From the NCBI GenBank assembly GCA_000442125.1, contig KE546976.1, positions 1,364,001 through 1,428,000 on the forward strand: a stretch of DNA of 64,000 nt. Direction: 5' to 3'. Shown here in pieces: positions 27,070-52,903 of this stretch. The notes under the pieces are model-generated. The model did not search any database and was not told the origin of the DNA. It worked only from the letters and a program-made list of their open reading frames with translations. This stretch comes from Opeltia flavorubescens. Its lineage: Eukaryota > Ascomycota > Lecanoromycetes > Teloschistales > Teloschistaceae. The stretch's first letter is position 1. Each line of letters opens with the position of its first letter. The position numbers were made by a program, and so were the translations under genes.

Positions 27070-29331
27070 TCACCGTTTCCCCTTCCTCACCCTCTCAATC
27101 TCAACCTCCAACTCATCCGCCACCGTCCTCCTCCCCCCCATCCTCCCAAAAATCCCCTTCCCCCCCACCCCATCATCCCTCTCCCACCTCCTCGCATTCT
27201 CCACAACCCTCTTCCCACAGTAACAAAAATACTCCCTCACCACCCCCGCCCAAACCCCATCCCTCATCTCCCCCCTCGTCAACCAATCCAACGTCGCATA
27301 CCTGAGTGTCAAACCACGGATCTTCTGGTTGTATTCCAGGCATTGGGAGTGGAGTTTTGGATGGTTGTGGGCGTTTTCGAAGCCGGGGTTGTTTTCCATG
27401 GGCCATTGCCAGAGGATCATTGCTTGGATGGAGACGAGGATTGAGGTGATTGTGGATTTTCCGGGTTGCCATTTTGTTTCGGGGGAGCCGGGCCAGGTGC
27501 CTATTAGGGAGAGGCAGACTGGTGGGGTTTTTTGGTTAGTATGTGGATTTAAATGAGGGAGTGATTGGGTGGAAGGAAGGGGAGGTGTAGTGATGATACC
27601 TTTGCCTGTGTTGTAGAGATTTGGGTTAAAGTAGGCGGCGCCTTGGCCTGTGGTGAGGAACCAGACTGACGGGGGCTGGAAGGGATATTCGCGGCCGCAT
27701 ACTATGTCGAATCTACAAAATATCTGGTCAGAGAAGGAGAAAGTTTTCTTGGGGAGTGGGGAATACTTACTCAAACAGACCTCCCTGGTAGGGTGTATCA
27801 TCAGGCCCGATTATCAAAGCCTATATCAGTCGTGAGCACTGAATGATTCTCGTGATTTAAATCTCACCTTCATTACATCCGGTCGATCCTCATCAACCCT
27901 CACAAAAACACCTTCGGGCAACGAAGTCACCATCTCCGAAGCTTCAGTCACAAGTCGTTTCATGCGGCCCGAAGCCGGATTATGAACCTGTGCTGCGAGC
28001 TTTGCCATGCTTCCACAAAGGTATCGCGCCACATTAGGTTTTCGAACAAGGCAGTGCTCCTTATGATATTCTTTCCACGTAGTGATCGTCGAGACTTTTT
28101 TGGAATCACCAACGAGCTCTGTGTATAGTTTGTTGACTCTTTGAGCAACTTCTAGGACATCTTTACCCGCTGCTGCGTTGTTGGAACCACCGAGGAGGAC
28201 TTTGCTTTGCGTGTTGAGGTTCGCGAGGCAGGAGATCAAAGACGGCGCCATGCCATCGTTTCTGCTCGCTACGGTCAAGACATTTTGCGCCGCTCTTTTG
28301 CCCTTGCCTCCGACGGTTGCGATGGTCTGTAATCCGGCACTTTGCTTCTTCACAAAGCGCTCTTCGCTGACGAGGTAGTCCAGCTTCGGATGCGCACCGA
28401 GGCGATGGACGAATTCAAAGGTCGCAAAGTAAAGGTCTGGCCGCTTGTCGACATCTTGAAGACTATCATTCCGTAACAATTCAGCGACTCGATCGGGAAG
28501 TAAACTCAATTCAATCATCGAGCCTATCAAAGGATTGACCTTTTTCTTCGTCTCTTTCCGTCGCGGTAACAGTTCGATGAGCATCCCCAGAATCCACCGT
28601 GTAAGACCATCAGTCTCTGCATCAACCTGATTAAAATGGAGAGCTTGCTGAAGACCTTGTCGTCGAAAACCTTCACGGGCGTCTGTCGATGAGTGTATCC
28701 CATCGAATTGAAATGGGCTGGTCATTATATCAGCTCCATAGCCTACTCCGCCCGAACCACGAGTGCGTCCTTGATTGTACTTTGCCGCTGCCAGGTTTTG
28801 TTCACTTCTAGCCTGTAGATTTAACTCCATATCATCATACTGGCAGAGCACGATCCATGCGATGAATACTGCGCCCTTACTGCAGCAGTAATCCATCTTC
28901 AAGCCCTCGTATTCTGCAATATATTCTGGGTTCCCGTGTTGAGCTTTATCGCCACAGCCCACGCATGTAGTAGCTCTGCATTTGCATTTGCAACCGGTGG
29001 CGGATTTCGTATCTGGTCTCTTCCACTTTTCAATCCAGTCCTGGGCATGGAGCTCTTTGATCAGTGGACGATCGCATTTGTAGCAGACTGTCTCGAGGAC
29101 GTCAGCTGTATATTGTTGGACAAAATCCATTGCTGTTTGGATCTCTTCAGGGCAGCCGGATTTGCTGTGGGATTTATGACCATGGTCGTTGTCCTTGACG
29201 TTCCCATTGATTTCTTCATTCAATCTTTTCGCAATTTCTTCGTCCGCTTGGTTTCTTCTATGATTCGATGGCTTGGGAGTGGAGCTGCCTTCGTCTGGTC
29301 CATATGCGCCTTTCTTCGATTGCTTGGGCAT
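27070..29331 (-). CDS. Large E2 ubiquitin-conjugating enzyme (BIRC6/UBE2O-type UBC domain)
   Basis: Four exons (27868-29331, 27771-27820, 27600-27712, 27070-27518; introns 47, 58 and 81 bases) give 691 residues. The C-terminal UBC domain is split by the introns and reads ...LIIGPDDTPYQGGLFEFDI, REYPFQPPSVWF, NPNLYNTGKVCLSLIGTW, with the catalytic Cys near residue 544. The W after the Cys loop and the LLGTW-like context place it with UBE2O, UBE2Z and BIRC6 rather than the small E2s. The N-terminal part has a Cys-rich, perhaps zinc-binding patch (CYKCDRPL, then CKCKCRATTCVGCG). Large E2s of this class can act as E2/E3 hybrids. Target unknown. Splices are supported by phase and by family continuity. 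Confidence 0.9.
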
Positions 29332-29742
29332 GGTGGTGGTATGATAAGTGTATGGTGAAATTCAAGTATTTTTTTTAATAAGTTGGAGATGGTTACAAAG
29401 GAAAACAAATCCGCAGGAGACACGCTTAGATATAGCCCGTCCACTTTGACTCACCATCAAGTACAATGACTTTCGAATAGCATCAATGTGAGCCATGGAC
29501 AGGATGCCAACAAGTCGTGTTCCTGAGTCAGACCCAGAAAGTCAACGTAGACAAGCTATCATCGATGAATGCACGTTTCGTTTCGTGCTGAAACCACGGG
29601 GAATGTATCTCATTATGGTTGATTAAAACCAGTTCTGTCAGCGGCCAGTCATGTACGCGACTTGAAGACTAAAAGTTTCGTCTATCTGTCATCGTTCGCC
29701 CGCGTTGTCTATCATCAGTCATATACATGAACCAACAATATG
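29332..29742. other. Intergenic between two minus-strand genes
   Basis: A 411-base spacer holding the E2 gene promoter and the 3' end of the ARMT1 gene. A short A/T run lies just upstream of the E2 start (near 29365). No gene seen. Confidence 0.6.
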
Positions 29743-31430
29743 TCAAACCTTGCCATCATGAAACTGAACAACAGCCCATTTACCAGACCATGCCCATTTC
29801 CTCGCTCCGCCTTCTTCGCCTCCGCCATCCAACTTCTTTAGATGCTCGTCTACTCCCACCGTCAAGCCAACAACGGTATCTGCTTTACATGTGCGCAAGG
29901 CAAGGATACGTAGCTCCGAGCCGGCGCCTAAAGGTCCTATCGCGGTCTCGAAAGGCGTGCTGGCAGACCACATTGCCTGTGTCACTCATCAGCGATATTG
30001 TCCTGATCACCATTCGCACTCGACATACATCACCAGTCAATTTACGATAATTGAGATCTCCCTTGAAGATGACGAGCTCACTCTCTTTCAAATCCTCATA
30101 CAGCGATGGTGCAGATGACGGTAATCGCCAGTAACTTCCTGGTCCAGTCCAGAACAGATTTGGTCGGATAGTCATTTGACCTTCATGATTGATAGTAACC
30201 CAATGAAAAAGTAGGAATTTCAACTCGGCTATTTCCTTCTCGGAAAGCGGCGGTGGAGTCTTGTTGTCATCTGAAGGTGACTCGAAGAAAGCTCGAGGGT
30301 CGGTGAGCGCGTTCAGAAGCGAAGCGAAATCATCAGGTAGTACATCCGAGACAAACCATGGTATTGATTTGGGATGTAGAACGATTTGAGTAGCTAGACC
30401 TGCTGCGAGAAGATAGCCGGCAAGGATCAAATCGACGAATAGTTCAAAGCCTGCGTTATCGAGGACAATATCGACGCGCCTTGATCCTTTGGGATCCTTC
30501 TTTTGTGCAGCCTTGAGCGAATCGTACGCTTGAGGGAGATTATTAACCAAAATATTCTTCTCCGAGCTCTTTCTAGCATCTGATCCTTGAAGCTTCTGAA
30601 TATCTTCGTATGTCAGGGAGGTGAGTAATGAAAGATCCGTAGCATTGCCCCATAAGCAAATCTCGCACATTTCTGTGAAGAGCAGCTTCTCCGCCTTTTC
30701 AACCTCTTCAGGAGTTCTGTTGTCTCGAGTACCATTCTGAAGTTGAGAGATCAATTCTTTGTACTTGGTCGCAAGCTCGAGGACGGCAGGTCGAGAGGAT
30801 CGAAAGGTAGACAGCTTTTGTCGAGAAAAAACATCGTATGTTTTCCAATGGTGGGAACGGGCGAAGGATGTATTCATTCGTCTATCTTCTGGTAATTAAT
30901 CGATGTCCCACAAGTCCGAAGAATGGTCCTCACCGGTAAAGGTAGCATTCGGCATAGAGCCATGGAACGTCGAACCAAGTAGGAGTACCGAGAGCAATGA
31001 GTTCCTTGTTGTAATCCTCAATGTCTCCTTTCCTGTCATCAACCAATGGTCTAACCTAGTCAACGAGTGCTGCGACCGAAGAGTATGGTGGATATGCTCA
31101 CGTCAATGGCCGGTTGTGTTGCAATTCATATTTCAGCTTGGACAAATCTTCCACAATTGATTTACCCTCCGAGGCTTTGTCGCTGTCGCCGCATGCTGAA
31201 ACTTCTCGGTGGAGATCATCGATAGCTCCTGTCTTGACAAGTGAGCGATAATGGATACGACTAGATACTTGTAGGCTTTACTAACCACAATGACAGGCCA
31301 TCGATCTCGAGCCGAGACATATGCAAAGGATGATTTGTCCGAGGTACTATAGGGTGCTATGCGATCATTAGTGGTCTTCGGTATAGAAATGACACCACGG
31401 TTTCGTACGGGTCTTCGTGTCGTGTTCCAT
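29743..31430 (-). CDS. ARMT1/DUF89 damage-control phosphatase
   Basis: Six exons (31409-31430, 31286-31356, 31102-31232, 30934-31032, 30029-30881, 29743-29976; introns 52-69 bases) give 469 residues starting MEHDTKTPPYSTSDKSSFAY, with the first exon only 22 bases long. Phase is kept through every junction. DUF89 landmarks are ARDRWPVIV, STFRSSRPAVLELA, the metal-binding DNAGFELFVDL and FKGDLNYRKLTGD followed by MWSASTPFETAIGPL. The yeast homolog YMR027W is a metal-dependent phosphatase acting on damaged sugar phosphates such as fructose-1-phosphate; a carboxyl methyltransferase activity has also been claimed for human ARMT1. Confidence 0.93.
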
Positions 31431-32392
31431 CACTGGCGTGATCAAATAAATGATCGTTGAAGGTTGACGAGGAAAAGTTGCGGGTCTCGGAATAAATGAG
31501 CAGAACGCTACACTGCCACGCCTCTGATGGCCCCTAAAGAAGTCTATCGCGATCTCGTCTCCGCCTCTTCACAAATAGCATATATACGGATCACTTCATA
31601 GCACGTTTCTCACACAAGAAGTCTTCAAGTCGAGGTTCAAATAATTCAATTAGATAACAGTCGGGTATCAAGCTTGCTATGTACTCCATCCGAAATGCAA
31701 AGAATGACGCCTGCCATGAATCCACAAGAATTGTTCTCACTCGCTTGAATATCAATGTCAATGTTGACGATAGAACTACATAATGGACTGGAAGACTAGA
31801 ACAGGATCGATTTGGTGATACAAGACGCCATCATTGGAATGAGAAATCGAATTCCTGATAGTGATGATGCTTCTCCTTCCTTCGCTCCGTTGCTGTATTC
31901 TCTCTCCAAAGTTCTCTGAAGGTGTAATTGCTATTGTGTCTGTCTATGAAGTGGTAAGTGGATTGAGATGTGCGAGGAAAGGTGTCCGTCGGATGCCATG
32001 AGGGTGGTTTCCAGCACAGATGTATTCGCTCGCCGCCCCTGATTAGTATTTGGTATGTTAGTTTAGGGTAAGAGTGGAAGTTTCCCGTCGGATGTCATGA
32101 AGACTTCTCAGCGCAGGTGGTTTGTGAGTTTCGAGGATGATGAGTTGAGGTTGTGTTTCTGATGGTTGTAAATGATTGCTCCCGTTGATGATTTGAAGAT
32201 GTCTCGCCCGAAGGAGGAATAATTTCGAGGGCCAGAGGCAGTGGAAGGTGTGGATGATGCGGTTAATCTCGTCGTGGAGACTTCAGATGACTGACGATGG
32301 GATTTGTTCATATCGCCTGCGAAGGGGTAACATTAGCTTGATAGGTCAGAGCAGAAAACAATATAAATACTAACATAGCTGTGGACCGGATT
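31431..32392. other. Intergenic; probable 3'-UTR with an intron
   Basis: About 960 bases between two minus-strand genes. A GTTAGT donor at 32374, a GCTAATG branch-like site and a CGCAG acceptor outline a likely 58-base intron (32317-32374, minus) just past the stop of the next gene, so its transcript may extend to about 32100. The sequence CCGTCGGATG(C/T)CATGA occurs twice (near 31986 and 32085) as a short direct repeat. No gene is supported; the frame 32108-32311 is more likely untranslated. Confidence 0.45.
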
Positions 32393-35300
32393 TCATCCTC
32401 CCCCCAGACCAGACCAGTGAGCTGCCAAGCCATCTTGACCGTTGTTCTCGATCCACACGTCAATCGATTTCGGGAAATCTCCCATTTGACTCTCCAAAAG
32501 CACAGGATCACCATACTCCTTGCCTCCGACAGGTGTTCCAGGTATTCTCCTAATGTACCCAAGATTGATACGAATACCTCTCGCCGCGCCCCAATGAGCC
32601 AGAATCGCAGCGATCTGATCACCACTGAAGAATTCTGTGTTCAATGTTTCCCCTTCCGCTAAGCCGGCTCTAAAGAGGTCTTGGATAGCTTGGGAGTTGA
32701 ATGATGCCATGAGCTCTTCGACGGTTGGAGGTGTGATGTCTGGATGCTTGGCCTTGATGGATTCAATGACGGCGTAGAATCCGCATCTGAAGCCATCGCT
32801 ACTTGTGTCAATCACTTGGTAGCCGGATTGGAGGAAAGCGTCTTCGAAACGTTCCTGGGCTTCTACACTTGATTTCGATTGCTCCTGTGCGTCGATATGA
32901 TTACCGCCATCAGAGGGTTTATCGTCATTAGAAGGCTTGTCACCATCCTCAGAAGGTTTTTTATCTTCGGGCGGTTTCTGGTCGGTTGGAGGCTCCTGCT
33001 GAAAAGTCAGATCTTTAGATCTCACAGTCTTAATGCATATCAATGAACCGACCTTCTTGGCACCGAATGGCGCGAGCTTATCCTTCAATGCTCNCCAAGC
33101 ATTTTCTAAAGCTCAGAGTCAGCATTCCCTCAAAAAGTAAACGGGGAAATTACTTACCTTTAACTCCCTTCACCTCAACCAGCACGATCCAGACAGTCTT
33201 TACACCCGGCTGATTATACTGATCGCGAGATTCTGCAATCGTTATACGCTTCGTGTAAGTTCTCTCCCTAAAGAGACATCCGAGTTGGAAGTTCAAGCCT
33301 TCGCTTTCTCCCCAAAGTTGCACCAGTCTGTCCATCTGCCAGGGAGAAAGGCAATGATGACCTGAAGTTCCCGGTAACATTCCACTGCGTAGATCTTCCA
33401 TGTGCTTGAGATATAATATCGACCAAGCCGAGACGGTTACTGTGAGCCCATGTTGGAGTTTCATAGCCTCGGACAGCGCTGTGTAGCTACTGTGTAGTCT
33501 CCGGGCGGCGTTTTCTACGGTGTCGACTTTGTTTGGGAACATCAGTTTGAGATTCTTTCGAGCCTCATTCTCTCTTAGTAGTTCGAGGGAAGGCGCCTGT
33601 GCTTGAACGATTTGCCCTTTATTGGTGGGAGTTGCGCTGCCATTGCCGGTATTTACACTCCTAGCGTTTGATTGGGATGGTTCAACAGGGCCATTGTTTT
33701 GCACCCCATCCATTGGAGTTGAGTCACCTCCTTCGCCTGAATTATCGGCTTTTGGCCCAGTATCCTTGATTAATTAGCAAAGTCCACTCAAGATCTGGAT
33801 GAATCTTACCTGGTGAGTATCCATCGGGTCTGGTGATGAATCATTGCCATATTGTGGTTTATTGCCAAGTCCAGAGCCAGTTGGAGTCAAGGGAAGATTG
33901 AACTTAAATCCTCCGCCGAGGCCGGGCAATGGCTTCTTTCCATCTACAAGGGGAGCATTGAAAATGGAACCCCCCCCTGTACCACTTTGAGGTTTGGTGC
34001 CAAAACCGAAACCAGTCTGGACGTTGGGGATATTGAATCTGAAGGACGCCCCACCAAGACCTGGGAGAGGGTTCTGCACCGTACCAAGGGGATTTGATGC
34101 TAGTCCTGGGATTGGTGCCATAAAGGCTTTGGGGCCGAAGATCGGCGTGGGGTCAGGGAGTTGCTGTTGGCCAGCGGGTGTTTTGTGATCAGTAGGAGTG
34201 GAGCTGGGGGTAGATGGAGCGTCAGGTAGGGTCCCTGAATCAGTATTTGGAGTCGATTCGGGTATCGGTTTCTGACTAGAGGATGCACCATCAGTAGGCA
34301 GTGGATTGTTGTTCGACACTGGAGCTGGATCGGGCTCTTTTTTGTCTCCGGATGAAGATTTATTACTGGTGACAGGAGTCTCCTTTGGCGCTGGACCGAG
34401 AGATTGTGCTGGAAGAGGTCGTGGTCGAGAGGTCAGTTTTTGCCTTTGACTCGACGCTTTCTTTATCTCTCGGCCACTCAGAATGGTTGAAACCGGCTCT
34501 GATCCGAGGTTCTTACCACCGCTTTGCAATAACAGGGGGTCGATGACAGGATCTGGCTTGGTTTGCCCTGCACTTTGAGACGGCTTGTCGACCGCAGGCG
34601 CTGGATCAAGCTGCCCAGTACCCTGAGATGGGACAGGATCAGCAAGGGAGGTTAAATCTGATTTCCCATTGTTTTCGGGCTTCGGTCCATTCATCTTTAG
34701 CTTTACTCCCTGACCAATTGGTTTACTGTCCAATTTTCTGGGCGCCAATTGTCCTTCTTCCCGATCTTTAGGATCAACCTGAGGTTGTGAAGGGGTATTC
34801 TGGGTCATAGGTTCCCGTGAGACTCTGACATCCTGCATTGCCTTGATCTGCAACTGCAATCGTGCCACTTTCTTCTTCTCCGACTCTACCTCAGCGCGCA
34901 CCTTCTCAGTTCCCTGCTCTGCAGCACCACGAGTGATTTCTGCGACAAGCTTTTGGACATTTAATGAAGAGATCTCATTTCGGAGGACGTCCATCTCGCC
35001 CTGAAGCGCGTCTTTCTCCGCGACGACGCGACCGTATTTCTCTTCTGCTTGCTTGAGGTCAGCGACGCCCTGTGCAGTAAGCTTCTGATTTTCGGCCTCG
35101 AGTTCTTTGACCCTGGGATCGTCGGTAGCCTTGGCTTGAGAAGCAGCATCGAGCTGCGCGCGGAGTTTTATGACCAAAGGAGCCTTCTCGAGGTCGGTCA
35201 ACGAGGGAGCAGTTCTTGGGGCTTGAGTCTCGAGCTGCGAGATTTTCTTTCGAGCAGCATCGAGATCTCCTCTGACCAACTTGACCATGTCAACAGCATC

Positions 35301-36755
35301 TCCTTTCTCCCTCTTAAACCTCTGATTGACCTTGCGTTGGTTCATTAATTCGTTGTCCAGCTTTGCAATGGTCCTCTGCTGATTGCTGATCTCATTCATC
35401 AATTTGGCAGCATTGCTGTCTTCCACGAGCTTGTTCAACCTAGCTATTTCCAATTGGTGGTCTTCGTTCATCTGTCGAATCTTCGATCGGTATTCAACTG
35501 ATGTTTCATTGAGGTTAACGATGGTCTGTTGTTGACTGCGGTTTTGGACCTGCAGTCGACCATTCTCCTCCGCGACAGCAAGGTATTCGTCGAGTGGAGG
35601 TCCGTGTAGATTCTTCCAATGACGGTAGAAGCATTCAAACTTTTCGTAGGCCGTTCTCAATCCAGCGAAAATCCCGGAACCAATCCAAGCGATACCCATG
35701 ACGAACAAAGGCCAGATAAGATTCCATACTCGGACAAAGAATCTTTGAATACTGGGCCAACTGTCGACGAAGCGTGCACGAATGCAATTGAGAAATTCTG
35801 GAGAGTGATAGGCAAGTAACCTCAACCCATACACCAACAGATACACAGGGAAGATAAACATTTCGCCGTATTGCCGACTATTCCAATCCGTAAGGTAGGC
35901 ATATATTGCTCGAACCGATGACATGTACAATCGACGTATGTGATACCCGTGAGTGATGATGAAGAGTGCACAGTGGATTTTATTCACAGCAACGAGGGAT
36001 GATATTGCGGGTTCTGCTAGCGACCATGGGATTTCATATGAGGTCAGACCGACGCTCGAGGTGAGGACGACGAAAATAGTGTAGATAATCCACCAGTCAG
36101 AAGCTTCATCTGACTGTGCTGCAACGGAGATGGAAGTTGGTGCCGAGACGGTTGATAGAGAGTTTGGTGGTCCGGAAGGTAAAAGTGAAGAGTTCGAACC
36201 ATTGCCATTATGACCGGAGCCACCAAATGGATTGCCAGATGCCGATGGTGGAGGGGAAGGGGGGTCGGTGTTATCACCACCATGCCCAGTCGATCCGCTA
36301 CCACCAGGAGCACCGTTGCCACCTGGATTGTTCCCACCAGAACCGCCGTTGCCATTGGAACCATTACCACCGTGACCACTGCCGCCAGAACCACCGAAAC
36401 CACCGCCACGACAGTCACCAGCCATCTTAGACTTATAACGACATTTAAACCACACCAGCCATAAGAACAGCAAAATCAATATTCCAAAAAACGCCTGCAA
36501 CGGAATCTCCCACGAGTAATCTTCCCACGGCCATGATGGAGGGACATATTCGCACGGTGTAGGACGTGGTACTGAGGTAGGGTTGTAAACAGGGGGAGAT
36601 GAAATACGTGCCCAGTGAGGATGATTGATTGTGACATCTTTGTAGACAGTGACAGACTTGATGCCTCTTACTATATACTTACTTCGGACGAAGTTGTAGA
36701 CGGAGCTGGCTGGTTCTTTGACAATTCGAGCCAGAAAAGCCCCCAAAGCTGCCAT
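32393..36755 (-). CDS. Giant membrane/coiled-coil protein with twin cysteine-protease-like (OTU-like?) domains
   Basis: Three frames join through introns of 45 bases (33765-33809, GTAAGA...ATCAAG, branch GCTAAT) and 52 bases (33106-33157) into exons 33810-36755, 33158-33764 and 32393-33105, about 1421 residues, phase kept throughout. Order: one membrane segment (84-103), a Gly/Ser/Asn-rich stretch (115-185), about four more membrane segments (to ~365), a long coiled coil (~390-660), a Pro/Ser-rich linker, FG-like repeats (~905-975, GLGG.F.FN.P), then two related globular domains. The second (~1265-1418) has SDGFRCGFYAV (Cys1292) and GLAAHWSGL (His1414), an OTU/papain-like arrangement; the first (~1040-1192) has HSSYTAL and NAWxAL instead. 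A 54-base in-frame segment (33002-33055) might be an extra intron. One N lies in exon 3. Function unknown; protease fold is inference. Confidence 0.7.
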
Positions 36756-37736
36756 GTTGATGATACTGTTGTTTATGAGAGTATGAGGCTGATGACAATG
36801 TAATTTTCAGATCTAGATTCGGAGTGTTATTGATGAAGAATAGCAGCGATAGTGAATGGTCTCACGGTAAATCTTATGAAGAATGTATGAGAGTGGATGA
36901 GTGTATTCTTCAGAGTGTGATCTCAGTTGATAGAGGTCAAGGAAGATCAAAAGACTGAAGGCTTGGATGTGGGTATGGTGATAGGAAAGAAAGAAGAAGA
37001 AAGAGGAATATTGACTGTATTATATATCCCCTCGCAACGCCGGGTAACATCACAGCGGTTAACTGTCGACAGGGAGACAAGGCTTGGATACCGTCATGCA
37101 CATAGTTTGTGTAGATGATGTTCTTCTCGAATGTGGGAGAAAGTCGCTGCTTTAGGGAAAGAGTTGAAAATTGTGTGACTTTGGGCAGAGAAAGCAAAAT
37201 CTGTTGATAGGGAGGCGAGATTGCGGTGGGGTGGAAGTGATGATGGACTGCATGGGAATTGTTATGAAAGAGGGGGTTGGGAGATTGTGATGATTTGGTG
37301 ATGGGAAATGACAGATTGGTATGTGCGTGTGGGTCAACAAAGGAAATGTGATGGAAATATTCGACGACAAGGACTGATGACAAGGGTATAGCGGACTTTA
37401 TCTCTGACAGAAACGAAAGACAGGCATAGAGAAATTTCATAGAAATCTGATAAAGGAAGAAGTACATGGCTTTGACTGTAGTAGCAAGCAGTAGTAGCTG
37501 CGTTGAGTCGCTGTAGAAATGGCAATGCAGCCAAAAATTTGGATGTCAAACACCATAGAATAGAACAGTAGGAACTAACAACATGAATAACACAAGTCAA
37601 GAACTCCATCGCAACTATGCACGTCCAAGATATCCATCGTAGCATTCGTCTGCCCTCGATACACCCACTAACGCTGGCGCCAATATTAGCCGCCAAGCAT
37701 GGAGAACACACGTGCAAATCCAACGTCGTCATCCCC
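36756..37736. other. Intergenic: promoter of the giant gene
   Basis: Nearly 1 kb between two minus-strand genes. It is rich in GA/AG stretches (36800-37030). A frame at 37334-37736 is the unspliced read-through of the neighbouring gene past its last donor site and is not counted as coding. No repeat family recognised. Confidence 0.55.
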
Positions 37737-39475
37737 TTATTCAGAGGACGCAGGGAGTTCGTCTCCATCATCTGGCTCACGTAAGGCTGGTTCAGGCCCT
37801 TCGCCTTTAAAATACTCTTCAACACGTCAGCAAACTTATCCAAATGAACGTAATTGATTAACTTACTCCTTAAACCCTCCATATCCTCCTCCATCTTCGC
37901 CAAATTCCGGATCTCCCACTCATTATTGGCAATACCAACACGCTGATCTCCCACCTCTTGAAGTATGTCTTTGAAATGCATTTCCAACGCTGTAGCAGCC
38001 TCGTTCTGAGATCGTAGAGCGCTGAATAGTTCGATGTTGTCGTCTATGAGCTTCTCGTTCTCGTTCGTGAGTTTCTGAAATAGTGATTGCAAGACAATGT
38101 ACTTGTGCTCGCGCTCATCGAGTCTGTCAAGGCACCGGCTGAACTCCTTGCGGTATCTCTTCGCCGAAAAGCGTTCATGTTTGAATTTGATCGTCAACGG
38201 TGATACCTCCATCCTCAAAGCAGCGTTTCGCCCACGGAGATTTGCAATCCGTGCAATCTTATCCGAGCACGTTTGGCGTAGCTTGCCGACCTCGACCTCG
38301 AGCTTTTCAATCTCAGAATCCTTCGCCTCAAGCTCAGTGCAGTAGATTTCAATAGCCTTCTTATTTCGCTCATTTGCGGCATCGACGTGTTCTTCATAGA
38401 TTTCCCTATCACCAGCGATAGTAGCAAGGAGACTCTTCTCTCGAGCACTCGCAGCTGCTCGCTCGTTGTTCAAGGTGGAATTCAGGGTGGGGATGATGCC
38501 CGCCAATTCCTTGACACGTCTCTCCAAAGCCACCACGGCGTTTTCTGATAGATGTAGTTCTTGGGTGAAAGCATGGTTCTTTTCATCGGACTTTCGTAGC
38601 TTCTCTTGCATATCGTTCATTTCGGTGGTGTGGCGTTCACAAAGCTTGGTTATCTTCTCAGTCCAATCACGTGTAGCCTTCTCCGATTGAGCTTTTTGCT
38701 TGTTCAAGGCCTGTTCGAGAGCGTGTATCTTCTCCTTGTTCATCTTGTGTTCAGCAAGTATCTTGTTGGAATCATCAAGTTGCCGCTCAACGTCACCAAG
38801 GACACGTGCTCTGCTCTGGGCAACTGCTTCGTCCAGTGCCTTCTGATGGATTGTATTCAACTCCGCAATGGCTGCGGTGTGTTCGTGCCGAATCTTGTTC
38901 ACCTTATCGGTATGTCGCTGGGCCATCCTTAATTTGAACGCTGGACGTGGTTGCTTCTCCCCGTCGAAAACGCTGCCCTTTAGCGATGACTCCGTCAGGC
39001 GCTTGATTGCGATCACTTCCCTCGCGTCTCGAAGTTGCTTGCGTAGGTTGGTCATTTCGTCGTCTTTGGCTGCCATTTGCTCTTGCTTTTGCCGCTGTTC
39101 TCGCTGTAGCTGGGCCTGCAGTTCTGACATACGGCAGCTCTTGGTGTGGATATCTGCAGTAAGGCTTTGAATCTGCCTATCGCGTGCAAGGCGGATCGAG
39201 ATAACGAGTTGCTGGACAATTGGAGCAAGAGGGAACAGAGAGCACACCAAGGCAAGCAGAAGGATAAACTGGAGACCAGCGTAGATAGCTTCAGGGGCAA
39301 TAGCGACCAACAATGAAAGCGGAGAAGTCGTTGTAGCGGTTGTATTGACGTACTGCATGACAGGCAAGCAAGTACAGTAAGGAGGTGATGTTTTACTGAC
39401 TGGGGGCTGCTGCATTGGAGTAGTCGAACGGAAAAGTCCTTTCACAGCTACGACGACAGATGCGACATCGAACAT
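37737..39475 (-). CDS. Membrane-anchored long coiled-coil protein, function unknown
   Basis: Exon 37867-39475, a 62-base intron (GTAAGT...TTTAAAG, 37805-37866) and a short last exon 37737-37804 give 558 residues ending ...PDDGDELPASSE. Residues about 50-95 hold one or two hydrophobic segments (LLVAIAPEAIYAGLQFILLL, then ALVCSLFPLAPIVQQLV); the rest is almost wholly a charged coiled coil rich in Glu, Lys, Arg and Gln. A 48-base in-frame stretch near 39370-39417 (GTCAGT...ATGCAG) may be an extra intron. The gene lies just upstream of the giant protease-like gene on the same strand and shares its plan of N-terminal membrane part plus coiled coil, so the two may be partners or old relatives. No family recognised. 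Confidence 0.7.
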
Positions 39476-39810
39476 CTTGGTCGAAGTAGTCGCTGCTAGA
39501 TACTATAGAATTGCGATGATTGGGTGACAGACTTTGACGAGCAAGGAAACGAATGCAGAAGACAAGAAAGACGAAGATGAGGGTGAAAGCAAGTTGATGC
39601 AAGATCATGGAGTGACGAAGTGAGTTTAATGACGCTATTGTCACATTTGAGAATATCAATAGTGTCAATTATCCATACTCTCATCACAATAACTCTGAAA
39701 GTTGAACAAAGGATTTCAATTAAACCGCCCGCTATGCAATGCATGAGAAGAACAATGCGATGCATCCTTTGTTAAAAACACCCGACTCCATTCGAAGAAA
39801 ACTATACCAT
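39476..39810. other. Intergenic between two minus-strand genes
   Basis: A 335-base spacer holding the promoter of the coiled-coil gene. No coding frame is supported. Confidence 0.6.
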
Positions 39811-40514
39811 TCAAACCATGAGCCAAGCACCAACACCCATACCGACTGTTACCACACCAGCTATCATACTGCCAGCCCGCAAGGAAAATGCACTACTAGA
39901 GAAAGATTGTGGAGGTGATCCTGGAGCAGGGGCGGAACCAGTGGGACGAGGAGCAGTAGTATTCCCAGTACCATATCCTCCTGTTGGGTAGGCATATCCA
40001 CCGCTCACCGCAGCCGAAGTTTCAAATGCAGCAACCTCAGAAGAAAGAGAAGTGTATAACCCGGGAAAGTCAGAGGTGACGATGTTGGCGGCATCTTGTC
40101 CAATACTCTCAATGTACTGTGTGACAGAGGGAGGGAGCTCAGTGATCCATGAAGGCAAAGAAGAGCCTTGGACAATATCTAGCAAGAAGCCTTCTGGGTC
40201 GTTCTGGATGGCGATCTGAGCTGTGATTGGAATACCAGTGGCGAGGACGCTGACGACGGAGGAAAATTCCGGAGCTGCAGTAACGGATGCGATAAAGGAG
40301 TCTGCGACGGCAGCGATTGATGTAGCCTAGAACAGCACGCATCATCAGGGTAGTCAACATCAAGCAAGTCGGAGTCACTCACAGCTGCAGGAGCAAGGAA
40401 TTCGGTTGGAATAACTTGTTCGATATCTGCAGCGTCGATCGCTGGCTCGCCGGTAGCCTGGGAGTTGACTGTGATTGCGAAAAGAGCAGCAGTAGCAATT
40501 ATTTTGGTATGCAT
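39811..40514 (-). CDS. Small secreted, probably GPI-anchored cell-surface protein
   Basis: Exons 40383-40514 and 39811-40326 around a 56-base intron (GTGAGT...TTCTAG) give 215 residues. The N-terminus MHTKIIATAALFAITVNSQA is a signal peptide. The body has a repeated helical Ala/Ser/Pro pattern (AAPEFSSVVSVLATGIP, SWITELPPSVTQYIESIG), then a Gly/Tyr/Thr/Pro-rich stretch, then a C-terminal hydrophobic tail (AGSMIAGVVTVGMGVGAWLMV) after small residues, as GPI signals have. Similar short proteins are abundant in fungal cell walls. Precise role unknown. Confidence 0.8.
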
Positions 40515-47441: not shown

Positions 47442-48926
47442 CTAACATCCAAACATCTTCGTGGTGCCGACGTTGATTCTACTCCATTTCCGTTGTTGCA
47501 ATGTAGATGCCAAAAATTGTCCTGGCCAGTATATATGATAAAGACACCACCATGGTAAAGGATCCCACAACTCAAATGTCCCGTCCTTCCAAAACAGAAC
47601 ATGCGTCAAGAACTCCAAGCAGCCTTGTAGATATCCCCTCAGACCGACCCCACCCATCAATAGCTGTAGGAAGGGAAATAGAACCAAAGTGATCAGATCA
47701 TGACCAATCCAATAGCATGGAAACGGATCTTTTGGTATAACAATCCCCATATCCAAAGCGTGTCCATTCATACCCGAGCCCAACAAACTCAGATATGCAT
47801 TTGACATTTCCTGTCCTTGTCCTTGGAAAAGAGCCACCGCAGTATGTGCTCGTGGATTGCATTCGATTGGATTAAGGACAAGCTCTGCTCCTTTCTCAGT
47901 AGCATTTTCATCGACGAGAAAGTCAAATGATAGATGCCCAGTCATGTTCTTTCCACTCCGTTCAACAAATTCCCGAGTAAAAGCTAGCATCGCACGACTC
48001 AGTACCGAATCCGCAGGCAGAGCTTCGTAATGCATCAAAAGTTCTTGACTGGGACATGCAACAAATGCCTTGACCTGTCCCTCGATCACCAGCGAGTGTG
48101 TACAATACTCTTTCCCTTTGATAAATTGTTGCAACACCCAAGGTTTCTGACCCGAGATTGGTATTTGAGAGACATGATCGTACGTTTGACTGAGAGTCCG
48201 CCGGGGTAAAAGTGTCATATCCCCTCTCACTGCATCATCCATACCCACACTCTTCATGATATAACGCTTCTCCTTTGTCCCATGAAGAACTTTGTGAACC
48301 GCATCTCGACTCGTCACATGGTGAGTCTCCGGTACATGTAGACCAAGCCGTTCCGTCTCTTGAATGAAGGTATCCTTCTCATGCAACATACTGGTCGTAG
48401 AAACATCGAATTGTATAGCGCGACAGCTACTGCGTCGTTCAATCACTTCTTTCGCCTGCCCATCTTCCGCGGCCGATGCAACACCCGAGCAACTGACCCA
48501 TAGATCCACCTTTTCTCTTCTCACGACTCGTAGTAGAGTGTTGATGTAAGGAATCGCACCAAGGTCTGCCGTCGGCTTAGGAAGCCTGTAGAACCTTTCG
48601 ACGCTCTTCGAATATCTGCCGCATGCGCGCACACCATAGGGTTCGAAATCCGCGCCGATAACATCATGACCGGCTTCGTAGAATAGTCGTGCAAGAGCGA
48701 GGCCCTTTGTCATGCCCACTCCAGTGACAAGGATGGTTTGTGGTTCGAAGGTGGGAGATGATCGTATGCGTTTGCGCTTGCGGGGCGCATCTTGGGGGAG
48801 GATGAAGGCAAGAGCATAGCTGGAGAAGAGAATGAAAGTCGTGAGTGGGAGGAACAGTACGCTCGTGAGGATCAGAATGGCGTTTCGAGCGAAGTGGAGA
48901 TGCCAGGGTGAAGTTCCGTCGAGCAT
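47442..48926 (-). CDS. ATP-grasp ligase of a mycosporine cluster (MysC-like), membrane-anchored
   Basis: One exon of 494 residues from the ATG at 48926 (a TTG lies 21 bases upstream). A hydrophobic N-terminal segment (NAILILTSVLFLPLTTFILF and onward, about residues 15-45) predicts an anchor. A Rossmann-like pre-ATP-grasp part (TILVTGVGMTKGLALARLFYEAGHDVIGAD) is followed by ATP-grasp marks KRYIMKSVGMDD, WVLQQFIKGKEYCTH and the metal/ATP-binding end IECNPRAHTAVALF. A second hydrophobic zone lies near residues 385-415. In cyanobacteria MysC ligates an amino acid to 4-deoxygadusol. Its neighbours here are the other two core enzymes, which supports the same job; fungi make glutamate-type mycosporines, so that is the likely amino donor. 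Confidence 0.88.
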   Translation of the reverse strand: MLDGTSPWHLHFARNAILILTSVLFLPLTTFILFSSYALAFILPQDAPRKRKRIRSSPTFEPQTILVTGVGMTKGLALARLFYEAGHDVIGADFEPYGVRACGRYSKSVERFYRLPKPTADLGAIPYINTLLRVVRREKVDLWVSCSGVASAAEDGQAKEVIERRSSCRAIQFDVSTTSMLHEKDTFIQETERLGLHVPETHHVTSRDAVHKVLHGTKEKRYIMKSVGMDDAVRGDMTLLPRRTLSQTYDHVSQIPISGQKPWVLQQFIKGKEYCTHSLVIEGQVKAFVACPSQELLMHYEALPADSVLSRAMLAFTREFVERSGKNMTGHLSFDFLVDENATEKGAELVLNPIECNPRAHTAVALFQGQGQEMSNAYLSLLGSGMNGHALDMGIVIPKDPFPCYWIGHDLITLVLFPFLQLLMGGVGLRGYLQGCLEFLTHVLFWKDGTFELWDPLPWWCLYHIYWPGQFLASTLQQRKWSRINVGTTKMFGC

Positions 48927-49247
48927 TTTGAAGCGAGAAGATTGCAATTTTAGCGATCAGCAACAATGAAGAACTCCATGTATGTAAGGACCATCTTATT
49001 CCATTATGAATATATGTGCCTTGGAAAATGTTGGAATGGTCACAATGCGCAAGTTTGCTACGTCATAGATCTTAACTCATTCATGGGAATGACATTCACT
49101 AATACGAAAGAAGAGGTATTCAGAAATGATGCAGCAAAAAGTTTGATTTCAGAGCAAGTCTAATCACATCTCCAAAAATGTAAAGACAGCTTTTATGTCA
49201 CAATCATCCTCCTCCCCTTACGCCTCGAGTTATCCACCACCAAGAAT
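48927..49247. other. Intergenic within the mycosporine cluster
   Basis: A 321-base spacer between two minus-strand cluster genes, AT-rich, with no supported frame. Confidence 0.6.
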
Positions 49248-50899
49248 CTATGCCTTTGAACCATTCGTGAACCCATTGACACCATTGCTATGCCCATTGG
49301 CGAGCTTCTCAGCGACACCATTGGTGTGACCGTTGACACCATCAACATGTCCGTTTGTGACCTTCCCACCATGGACTACACTGCCACCGTCCATCGATCC
49401 ATTGAGACTGCCAGCTTTTGCCGCGGCGTCCTCAAGAGCGTCGACTTCCTTTTGGTTGTTCTCGGTATAACCGGTGTCGCTAGCATCAACAAAAGCCTCC
49501 AAACCTTCGCCATTGCGGGGATATTCCTTCATGAGTTCCTTGTGTCGTCGTAAGGCAGCATTTAGCTCCTCTTTACTGACATCATTCAAGAAGGTGCATG
49601 ATCCAATTGGGTTTGGAACGGCAGCTCGAAGCTTGCCATCTCTTGTCTTGAGAATGGCGGCGGTAGCCTTATCGAGAATATCCTCATCGAATTGAGGATG
49701 ATCCATGGACAATCCGGCTCTGGAGAACAAGCTCAACATACGACGATGTTCTGCATCACTAAGAAGGCCTCTGCTGTTGGCTAGGGTAGCCGAGTATGCC
49801 ATGTCAATGGATATGGCGTGTCCATGACGGAGGGGAGTCTCAGGAACAAGTTCATGTAGGGGTGACCATCTAAAATCATTAGCAAATACCATCGACCAGA
49901 AGAAAGTACCCACGTATGACCATAAGCAATGACTCTGTCCAAACCAATCTCATGAAGATTTGGTGTTTCCAATTTCAACATCTCATGAATTCCTTCACGG
50001 TTGATCTTGTCTGCGGCATCACGAACCTCCTCTGGTGCACCTTCAAGACGTCCAAAGGCAGTATTGATAATCTGCTCACAATATTTGTCCAAGAGTTCAA
50101 AGGTGGGTAGGTGAGAACAAGACGAGATTTTGATCAACTCGGCAAAACCGTTTCGGATCTGAGCGACGGGTAGAGTACGGAGGAAGGTAAAATCGAGAAA
50201 GGTATGCATAGGTGCATGATAGGCTCCCAGACGATTCTTGTAGTTGCCATAATTGACAGCAACCTTGATCGAAACCGAGGCGTCTATCAAGCCAATGACG
50301 GTAGTTGGGACTCGGATGAAATTGGTGTTTCTCCGGTATGCCGCGCAAGCGAATCTGCAAGGACGATCCGTTAGCACGTGACTTTACAGAATAGACAACC
50401 TTTAGGAGATTGATGGGAGAGTGCCTTGATGTAATCTCTGGCAAGAGTTTGCTTTTACCCAGCAACGTCAGTGACGAGTCCTCCGCCGACGACCAAAACG
50501 GGTTCCTATAAAAGTCAGTGAATATGGTTGTTATGGCAAAGGAACAAAGAAGAAAAATATTGCGAGTACCTTCCGGTAGATGCCAAACTCCGTCATGGAA
50601 TCAACGATGCTTAAAAAAGTTGGAATAGTCTTTGCTTTTTCACCAATCTTGGTCTTGTGAACCTTCAGTTCGAGATTGTAATGATCGAAATATTTCTCAA
50701 TTTGATCTCCATACATCTCAAACACATTCATATCGGTCACAGCCAGGACACGACCCCATTTCTGGTAACATTCTGCCAATTGACGATTCTTGATATCAAA
50801 GACTCCATCCAAGAAGGTGAAGTCGTAAGAAATCTTTTCATAACCATCCACATGAAAGCCATTCTTTGTCTCAAGAACAGATGCTGTAAGGTCTGACAT
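49248..50899 (-). CDS. Desmethyl-4-deoxygadusol synthase (dehydroquinate-synthase-like, MysA type)
   Basis: Exons 50570-50899, 50459-50505, 49914-50354 and 49248-49869 (introns 64, 104 and 44 bases) give 479 residues. The sugar-phosphate cyclase fold shows [27 protein letters not shown] (joined over introns), RVPTTVIGLIDASVSIK, NRLGAYHAP, NGFAELIKI and YGHTWSPLHE, with metal-binding Glu and His in these blocks. The motif set fits DDGS/EEVS-like cyclases that use sedoheptulose-7-phosphate rather than true 3-dehydroquinate synthase, which in fungi is part of the AROM polypeptide. The last ~60 residues are an odd low-complexity tail of Asn-Gly-His repeats. Shares a divergent promoter with the methyltransferase. 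Confidence 0.93.
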
Positions 50900-51954
50900 G
50901 TTGAAGTCAAGTAAAGAATTGAGTTGAGTGTAGGTTGTAGGAAAGAAGATGGGAGACCAGGAAGATTTATCTCAATTGAATCTGTTGAAGGAGATGATGT
51001 AGTACGGACCAACTCTCTTCACTTTTGTGGCTCGGTTAGAATGGAAAAAGTGACTCGGTTAGAATGGATAACGTCAATCGAGATGGTCAAAACATGGTTG
51101 TTATCAAGACCCCTTTGACAAACTTCCATACAAATCCCTCTAGTTCAACAACCGCACGGGTGAAGGCTTGGACTATCCAAAACTATGAATTAGTTCCCTG
51201 TTGACTGACGCAAATTCATGCAGAACCAATGAGAATTCAACAGTGATGATGTACAGGGACAAGTTCTTGGCTCCAATCAACCCCTGACATACGGAAACAT
51301 GTCCTATGCAGGAGATCATTTGATTGGATATGTTGATGCGGCCATGACATCTGCAGGGTGTAGTAACGGCCAGATGTTGACATCATTAAAGGGTCCCAAG
51401 TTTGAAAACTCTTTGTGGGGTGGACGAGGCCCAGGCTAGTGGGGTACAGGGGAAAGACCCCGACAATCTGGTGTCAGATCTCGGATAGATTGAGTTGTGC
51501 CGATCTCATTTCAATGCATGGATCCGATCATTTTAGTTCCTTTATGGACGGATGTCGCTCCGCCGGTTACCTACTCGGAAACATGCTTCATGCAATTGCC
51601 ATTGTCAGAACTGTAGTGTCAACGGCGACGATGATGACCTCAACACAACATGAGTAGCTGCTGAAGCGCNCCAGCCGATGTTTGCCAGACTGCAAAGCTC
51701 ATAGGCTATAAGAAGCGATGTTGATATTGACGTTGTACCCTGTGGAACTTCTTAACCTTACTTGGTTAGAGGAGGGGCGATGAGCAGGTTTTACACCCCA
51801 CACCAGAAAATGGCCGACACAAGCCAGAAATTTGTTCAATGATGACGATGAGTAGTGAGGGAATAGTCCAAGCAACGTTTCACTAGTGTATTGAGGCTAA
51901 GGAAAGTGCCGTGTTGACAAAAAAGGTAACTGAAAAAAAAGTACCCACCACAAC
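50900..51954. promoter_or_regulatory. Divergent promoter of the mycosporine cluster
   Basis: About 1.05 kb separates the start of the cyclase gene (minus) from that of the methyltransferase gene (plus), so both can be governed together. A 15-base direct repeat CTCGGTTAGAATGGA occurs at 51031 and 51054, 23 bases apart, a spacing of about two helical turns, and is a candidate regulator site. One N lies at about 51670. No coding frame is supported. Confidence 0.6.
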
Positions 51955-52903
51955 ATGAATATGCCATCTTCAACGATAGAAAGCATCGGAAACACTCGCT
52001 TTGACGAGAAAAAGGCGTACGTACAGGATGGGAAAGGCCAACCTTTTGTATGACCTAACATGCAAATCCCCATCATTCATTAATTGTATATAGTTCGACG
52101 ACGGCCGAGAGATTGAACTTCTCCATTTCGTGTATCGTCACCCTGAAATCGATGAGATTCGGGGATCACCGACAAAAGTTTTGAAAGCAATTGACGAATA
52201 TGGACGAACAAAGAGATACCTCATGAACGTTGGGGAAGACAAAGGAAAGATCGTAACAGATCTGATCGAGGAAGTCAAGCCTCAGGTGATGGTAGAGTTA
52301 GGCGGATATATCGGGTACTCTGCCTTGTTGTTTGGAGACGCCGTCCGTAAGGCGGGAGGAAAAAGATACTTCAGTCTTGAGCGAAACCCAGAGTTCGCAG
52401 CTGTCATCATGTCGTTGGTCGATCTCGCAGGCTTGAGTGATGTTGTGAAGGTCGTCGTTGGCTCGAGCGCTGACTCCCTCAAGCGCTTACACGCCGAGGG
52501 CCTCGACCATATTGATCTAATGTTCCTCGATCATTGGAAGCCTCTGTATGTGAGCGACCTCAAGCTCTGTGAACATCTTCAACTTGTCAGCCCCGGTTCA
52601 GTCTTGGCTGCGGACAATGTTATCAAACCTGGGAACCCACCATACCTTGAATACGTACGAAGCAGTGTTGATCAGAAAAGAAACGCCAGCAGTTCAGAGG
52701 AAACGACGAAAGCAGACTCATCAACATTTGGAAAGAATGCCGACATGTACAAAGAAAGAGAAGGAAAGGAGGAGGTGAGCAACGAGATCAAGGGTAATCC
52801 GAGCCTCGTCTATGAGAGCAAACTTGTGAACAGCTTTGAGCCAACAGGCGAACCAGTATGTTCAGAACCACAGTTGATACACCACATACTGACAGAGACA
52901 TAG
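51955..52903 (+). CDS. Catechol-type O-methyltransferase of the mycosporine cluster (MysB role)
   Basis: Exon 51955-52020 (22 codons, MNMPSSTIESIGNTRFDEKK...) joins exon 52094-52903 over a 73-base intron (GTACAG...TATAG); 291 residues. A second ATG at 51961 could also serve. SAM site: VMVELGGYIGYSALLFGDAV, then YFSLERNPEF. Metal ligands of the COMT family: FLDHWK (Asp) and AADNV (Asp-Asn). Beside the cyclase and ATP-grasp genes it should methylate desmethyl-4-deoxygadusol to 4-deoxygadusol. Residues ~205-270 form a low-complexity Lys/Glu/Ser-rich insert before the C-terminus, unusual for COMT. Confidence 0.9.

Follow-up and report, generated by a model that had tools for sequence, protein, structure and literature searches.

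The gene described here lies on the minus strand of a 64,000-nucleotide (nt) stretch of the Opeltia flavorubescens genome (contig KE546976.1, positions 1,364,001 to 1,428,000; hereafter the window). Three exons between 32393 and 36755 join to 4,266 nt, corresponding to 1,421 codons plus a stop codon without any internal stop. A first-pass annotation of this DNA had proposed that three frames join in phase via two introns, which was borne out at the DNA level. The gene ends in two domains, A and B, which sequence comparison identifies as homologous, and domain B is predicted to be an OTU-like cysteine protease. The gene and the twin domains alike are genuinely present in the DNA, and the stretch is likely a fungal gene with predicted splicing and the sole intact copy found in its genome.

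Exons, introns and the N-terminal region

Exon 1 (33810..36755, amino acids (aa) 1-982) and exon 2 (33158..33764, aa 983-1185, last codon split) were delimited by their open frame and a codon-usage scan. For exon 3 (32393..33105), which carries the end of domain A, an acidic and proline-containing linker, domain B and the stop codon, the relative P0001 was used in addition. Predicted intron 1 comprises 45 nt (33765..33809, GTAAGA...GCTAATTAATCAAG) with the signals GTAAGA, GCTAAT and AAG, and it would place an in-frame TAA in the transcript if left unspliced. Predicted intron 2 comprises 52 nt (33106..33157) with the signals GTAAGT, GCTGAC and TTTAG, and the frame switches here. The splice signals of both introns are of the common fungal type. 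In the codon-usage scan, trained on 12 other open reading frames (ORFs) of the window, frame 0 ranked top in every step of exons 1 and 2 except 33475-33325 (frame 2), and frame 1 ranked top from intron 2 to the stop codon. Several steps in exon 1 were near zero; the per-codon coding score reached up to 0.30 within the gene compared with at most 0.13 in any frame outside. A possible third intron in exon 3 (GTCGGT...TTTCAG, 54 nt) is in phase and has a weak donor. Base 33094 is an N, thus codon 1189 is unread.

Exon 1 encodes the N-terminus, a membrane part, a coiled-coil-like region and an arm rich in proline and glycine. The annotated membrane helices were supported by a 19-residue hydropathy scan, which revealed five hydrophobic segments (aa 84-102, 221-239, 250-268, 297-315 and 340-364; 35664..36506), the last being a merger of two overlapping peaks. 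Positive charges after segments 1, 3 and 5 fit a cytosolic C-terminus. The charged, Pro/Gly-poor region at about aa 385-650 (34806..35603) showed a 7/2 periodicity after segment 5, in support of the coiled coil annotated earlier: among the 20 windows tried, it was matched by 9, 7 and 50 of 500 shuffles in aa 351-420, 421-490 and 491-560, respectively, and there was no such periodicity in aa 561-630 (167/500). Inspection of the sequence at 33840..34118 identified the Pro/Gly-rich stretch with two copies of PLPGLGG...F.FN (aa 895 and 941). FG-like repeats had also been annotated, and this claim did not stand. FG nucleoporins contain many FG, GLFG or FxFG repeats. The arm resembles them in being rich in glycine, proline and phenylalanine, but the whole protein (1,421 aa) has seven FG, only three of them in the arm (aa 860-985), no GLFG and one FxFG. 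Therefore, an FG-nucleoporin-like arm was ruled out in favor of the two-copy motif.

Homology and putative catalytic residues of the twin domains

Domain A (aa 1040-1205, 33044..33593), which is split by intron 2, was delimited by alignments, and domain B (aa 1263-1421, 32396..32872) by P0001 and a structure model. P0001 is a protein of 182 aa with 63% identity to exon 3 over 176 aa, and it was the only relative obtained in the exon 3 search (194 candidates; 5.8 billion proteins). It comes from another genome, since domain B, like domain A, matches only itself in the 34.4 Mb source genome. No relatives were found in viral contigs or in prokaryote genomes, and the best match in PHROGs had an E of 0.024.

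A direct comparison of A with B was weak, with a score of 45 that was reached by 8 of 2,000 shuffles; 22 further segments of this protein scored no higher than 35. The two domains were linked through P0001. Full-length domain A aligned to P0001 with a score of 67, which none of 2,000 shuffles reached. The exon-2 part of A by itself scored 59 against P0001, compared with at most 43 for 161 other natural pieces of the window and 58 for the top one of 5,000 shuffles. Moreover, a profile comparison of A with B plus P0001 gave 22.6, a value reached by none of 300 shuffles and none of 100 natural pieces. The alignment of A with B reported in the first-pass annotation is thus beyond chance.

The likely nucleophile of domain B is Cys1292 (codon 32783..32785, DGFRCGFYA) and the likely general base is His1414 (codon 32417..32419, AAHWSGL), the positions of which were confirmed in translation as annotated. 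P0001 keeps both residues, its motif being SSDSFYCGFFA where B has SSDGFRCGFYA, and both lie within stretches that are well conserved between B and P0001. For domain A, a Ser at the place of the Cys and an Ala at the place of the His had been claimed. The former was found in Ser1074 (codon 33489-33491), which aligns with Cys1292 in the alignments with B and P0001, while the partner of the His is either Asn1186 or Ala1187 depending on gap placement. Domain A is hence a homolog of B and P0001 with Ser at the Cys and Ala or Asn at the His, as in a pseudo-enzyme twin. Accordingly, the proposed pattern of an active enzyme with a pseudo-enzyme copy gained support from P0001, which keeps Cys and His, and from the homologous A, which has neither.

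Proposed OTU assignment and function, and alternatives

The earlier guess of an OTU-type enzyme gained support as well, since the model of domain B matches OTU-type structures weakly but consistently. Its best structural matches were the cellular OTU deubiquitinases OTUD3, yeast Otu2, OTUD1 and DUBA. In the Foldseek search no E was below 0.001, and a ZUFSP-family entry (7oiy) appeared at rank 20. The 50 VIA matches listed for domain B are all OTU-type, 39 of them by title. The predicted order in domain B is Cys helix, helices, strands and His, which is also the order in OTU domains; His1414 lies within a low-confidence stretch of the model. In OTU enzymes the His is found near the C-terminus, after the strands, and is followed by an aromatic residue. 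Domain B has AAHW at aa 1412-1415, which is kept in P0001, and HY stands at a like place in two of the three OTU genes of this genome; the open frame of the third one lacks a corresponding HY. Domain A yielded a useless model when folded alone (pLDDT 36), so that its being OTU-like follows through B alone.

The Pfam OTU profile (PF02338) exceeded its cut-off at three other places in the source genome but matched neither the three exons (E up to 1) nor domain B or P0001 (E up to 10), and no signal emerged when the profile of B was compared against the three classical OTUs encoded in the genome. OTU motif I is given as PGDGXCXXHX (PMC5917037). Domain B (SSDGFRCGFYA) has the DG and the Cys with one extra residue between them, and lacks both the PG and the His. 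Compared with cellular OTU deubiquitinases, domain B therefore shares the predicted arrangement and has its best structural matches among them, but differs in the lack of a significant Pfam OTU or classical-OTU match, in a Cys loop that is one residue longer, and in being joined to a membrane part and a tandem twin.

On this basis, we give about an even chance to the following scheme: five predicted helices likely anchor the protein in a membrane, where B would be an OTU-like cysteine protease cutting ubiquitin off proteins and A a non-catalytic partner. The helices would keep the protein in place so that its long C-terminal portion faces the cytosol, chains would likely pair through the coiled coil, and reach would be provided by the Pro-rich arm. 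The binding partner of domain A would be ubiquitin, domain B or a substrate, and cleavage of the isopeptide bond would fall to Cys1292 with the aid of His1414. Several results weigh against this proposal. BLASTP gave an E of 1.2 for A against B and, with composition correction, of 0.93 for A against P0001, and the hhalign probability for A against B plus P0001 was 6.7%. Furthermore, the loop 316-342 holds four K/R, contrary to a cytosolic C-terminus.

Among the alternatives, it is unlikely but well worth considering that A and B are both non-catalytic OTU-like scaffolds, the protein serving to tether ubiquitin or partners at a membrane in the manner of human OTULINL, and that the Cys and His of B are structural or due to chance. 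A membrane-located OTU pseudo-enzyme is known in OTULINL (PMC7862380), the Cys loop of B is one residue longer than DGxC, P0001 has DS at this site, and no Asn or Asp stands two residues after His1414. Nevertheless, Cys and His lie within the well-conserved stretches of B and P0001, and both are missing from twin A. Rather unlikely, in our estimate, is another kind of papain-like enzyme, for example a deamidase or a protease acting on a different modifier, with an OTU likeness that stems from the shared core. The Foldseek values, the rank of the ZUFSP-family entry and the missing OTU profile match would agree with it; the VIA matches listed, all of them OTU-type, and the order of Cys helix, helices, strands and His, which is that of OTU domains, argue for OTU.

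We also considered that the domains belong to an OTU lineage common to them and to fungal double-stranded RNA viruses, in which case the enzymatic end would have been taken from a mycovirus, or the gene would be in conflict with one. In BFVD, a Fusarium mycovirus protein ranked first (E 2.8e-3, probability 0.98) and a betachrysovirus protein third (E 4.1e-3, probability 0.99), and 8 of the best 50 matches carry chrysovirus or botybirnavirus names. However, iridovirus proteins with like scores, one named ubiquitin thioesterase and one OTU, are found at ranks 2 and 4, the structural scores are weak, and the viral contigs held no relative. A chrysovirus motif has been described as PGDG(K/S)CGXHA, with Gly after the Cys (PMC5086604). 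This Gly is present in B (DGFRCGFYA) and P0001 (DSFYCGFFA), whereas the three classical OTUs of the genome have Leu; the Ala four residues after the Cys occurs in classical OTUs as well. Domain B shares the DG, CG and A of this motif and departs from it by an extra residue before the Cys and by Y for H. Besides, cluster II chrysoviruses, including BdCV1, the virus of the rank-3 match, are reported to lack the OTU motif (PMC5917037). The OTU-like domains of chrysoviruses and botybirnaviruses are thus alike in being among the best BFVD matches and in the Gly after the Cys of the chrysovirus motif, and unlike in belonging to viral proteins, the likeness here coming from structure models and a motif. 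We regard a viral origin or conflict as very unlikely, and give the same low weight to its fuller form, a fungal membrane protein with a live and a dead copy in tandem of an OTU lineage known elsewhere from double-stranded RNA viruses of fungi, captured from or matched to mycovirus proteases, whose dead copy would be a decoy for ubiquitin chains or a viral substrate at the membrane.

Most improbable of all are two genes or a wrong join, with exon 3 and its domain B on a separate transcript: the join is unconfirmed by conservation because neither exon 2 (241 candidates) nor the C-terminal 382 residues within the full-length protein (aa 1040-1421; E up to 1, 4,817 candidates) found a relative, both being weak negatives as the number of intron-joined fungal proteins in the database is not known, but the splice signals are good, the phase is kept, a coding frame lies on either side of intron 2, and the alignment of A with P0001 crosses the exon 2/3 junction, the score rising from 59 to 67 with inclusion of the exon-3 part. 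The best reading remains an OTU-like enzyme tethered to a membrane and accompanied by a dead copy, with splicing, OTU fold and topology as predictions and the complete mechanism about as likely to be right as wrong.

Genomic context and comparison with known systems

Five decayed fragments of the membrane part with stops inside were found in the genome (L016-L020; two on contig 10 and one each on contigs 9, 7 and 1). They have 68-89% DNA identity and mostly cover different pieces, and one decayed copy shows DNA similarity from 9 bases ahead of the ATG onward. These remnants point to an older gene family of which most members have likely died out. A seventh place, on contig 4 (L009, E 0.005), is Gly/Ser-rich without stops and was left out as presumed low complexity. 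No remains of A or B were detected near the decayed copies under E 1, and Pfam searches of nine ORFs near them matched just a single ORF, which is a CDC45 gene. Repeat-induced point mutation was rejected as the cause of decay, as C>T plus G>A amounted to 66 and the reverse changes to 66 as well in eight aligned pieces.

In the neighborhood, an ORF at 27070-27810 (minus strand) encodes an E2 ubiquitin-conjugating domain (Pfam UQ_con, E 9.8e-8), 4.6 kb from the OTU-like gene. As a sign of shared function, such a neighbor is weak evidence in fungi. Upstream of it, a 511-aa ORF without Pfam match (27826-29361, minus strand) may be the N-terminal exon of the E2 gene. An ARMT1-like damage-control phosphatase domain (E 4.7e-68) is found at 29885-30895 (minus strand). 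The next gene upstream of the OTU-like gene (37334-39502, minus strand) encodes, by eye, a hydrophobic segment and then a long stretch of coiled-coil-like protein, and it has no Pfam match; kinship of the N-terminus with it was rejected, as 99 of 300 shuffles reached the alignment score of 32. Further away, within 47442-52903, one ORF is DHQ-synthase-like (49781-50383), another encodes an O-methyltransferase (52094-52903), and a third, 504 aa long and lacking a Pfam match, is ATP-grasp ligase-like by eye; we take them to be possibly a mycosporine-type cluster. There were no tRNAs in the window, no tandem repeats over 31000-40000 and no Rfam matches over 30000-40000.

A review that relies on database domain annotation lists two OTU genes each for yeast and Magnaporthe and a single one for Cryptococcus (PMC9599802). 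An OTU-like domain that is missed by the Pfam profile yet seen in a predicted structure would mean that such counts can be too low. In the listed titles and abstract openings of the literature on such an architecture, fungal OTU genes, OTULINL and mycovirus OTU, the architecture was not described. Two known systems come close to it, as far as the accessible parts of their sources describe them. LotA of Legionella is a bacterial effector that carries two OTU domains (PMC10318531); the tandem in one chain is as here, a likeness by architecture alone. OTULINL (FAM105A) is a human OTU pseudo-deubiquitinase at the membrane of the endoplasmic reticulum (PMC7862380), and its membrane-linked OTU domain resembles domain A in that the active site is broken. 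Neither is described there as combining an active and an inactive copy in a single membrane-bound chain, and such a chain, if true, would be a test case for the regulation of active deubiquitinases by pseudo-deubiquitinases. In contrast to OTULINL, the fungal protein combines the dead domain with a likely active one in the same chain, both preceded by five predicted helices.
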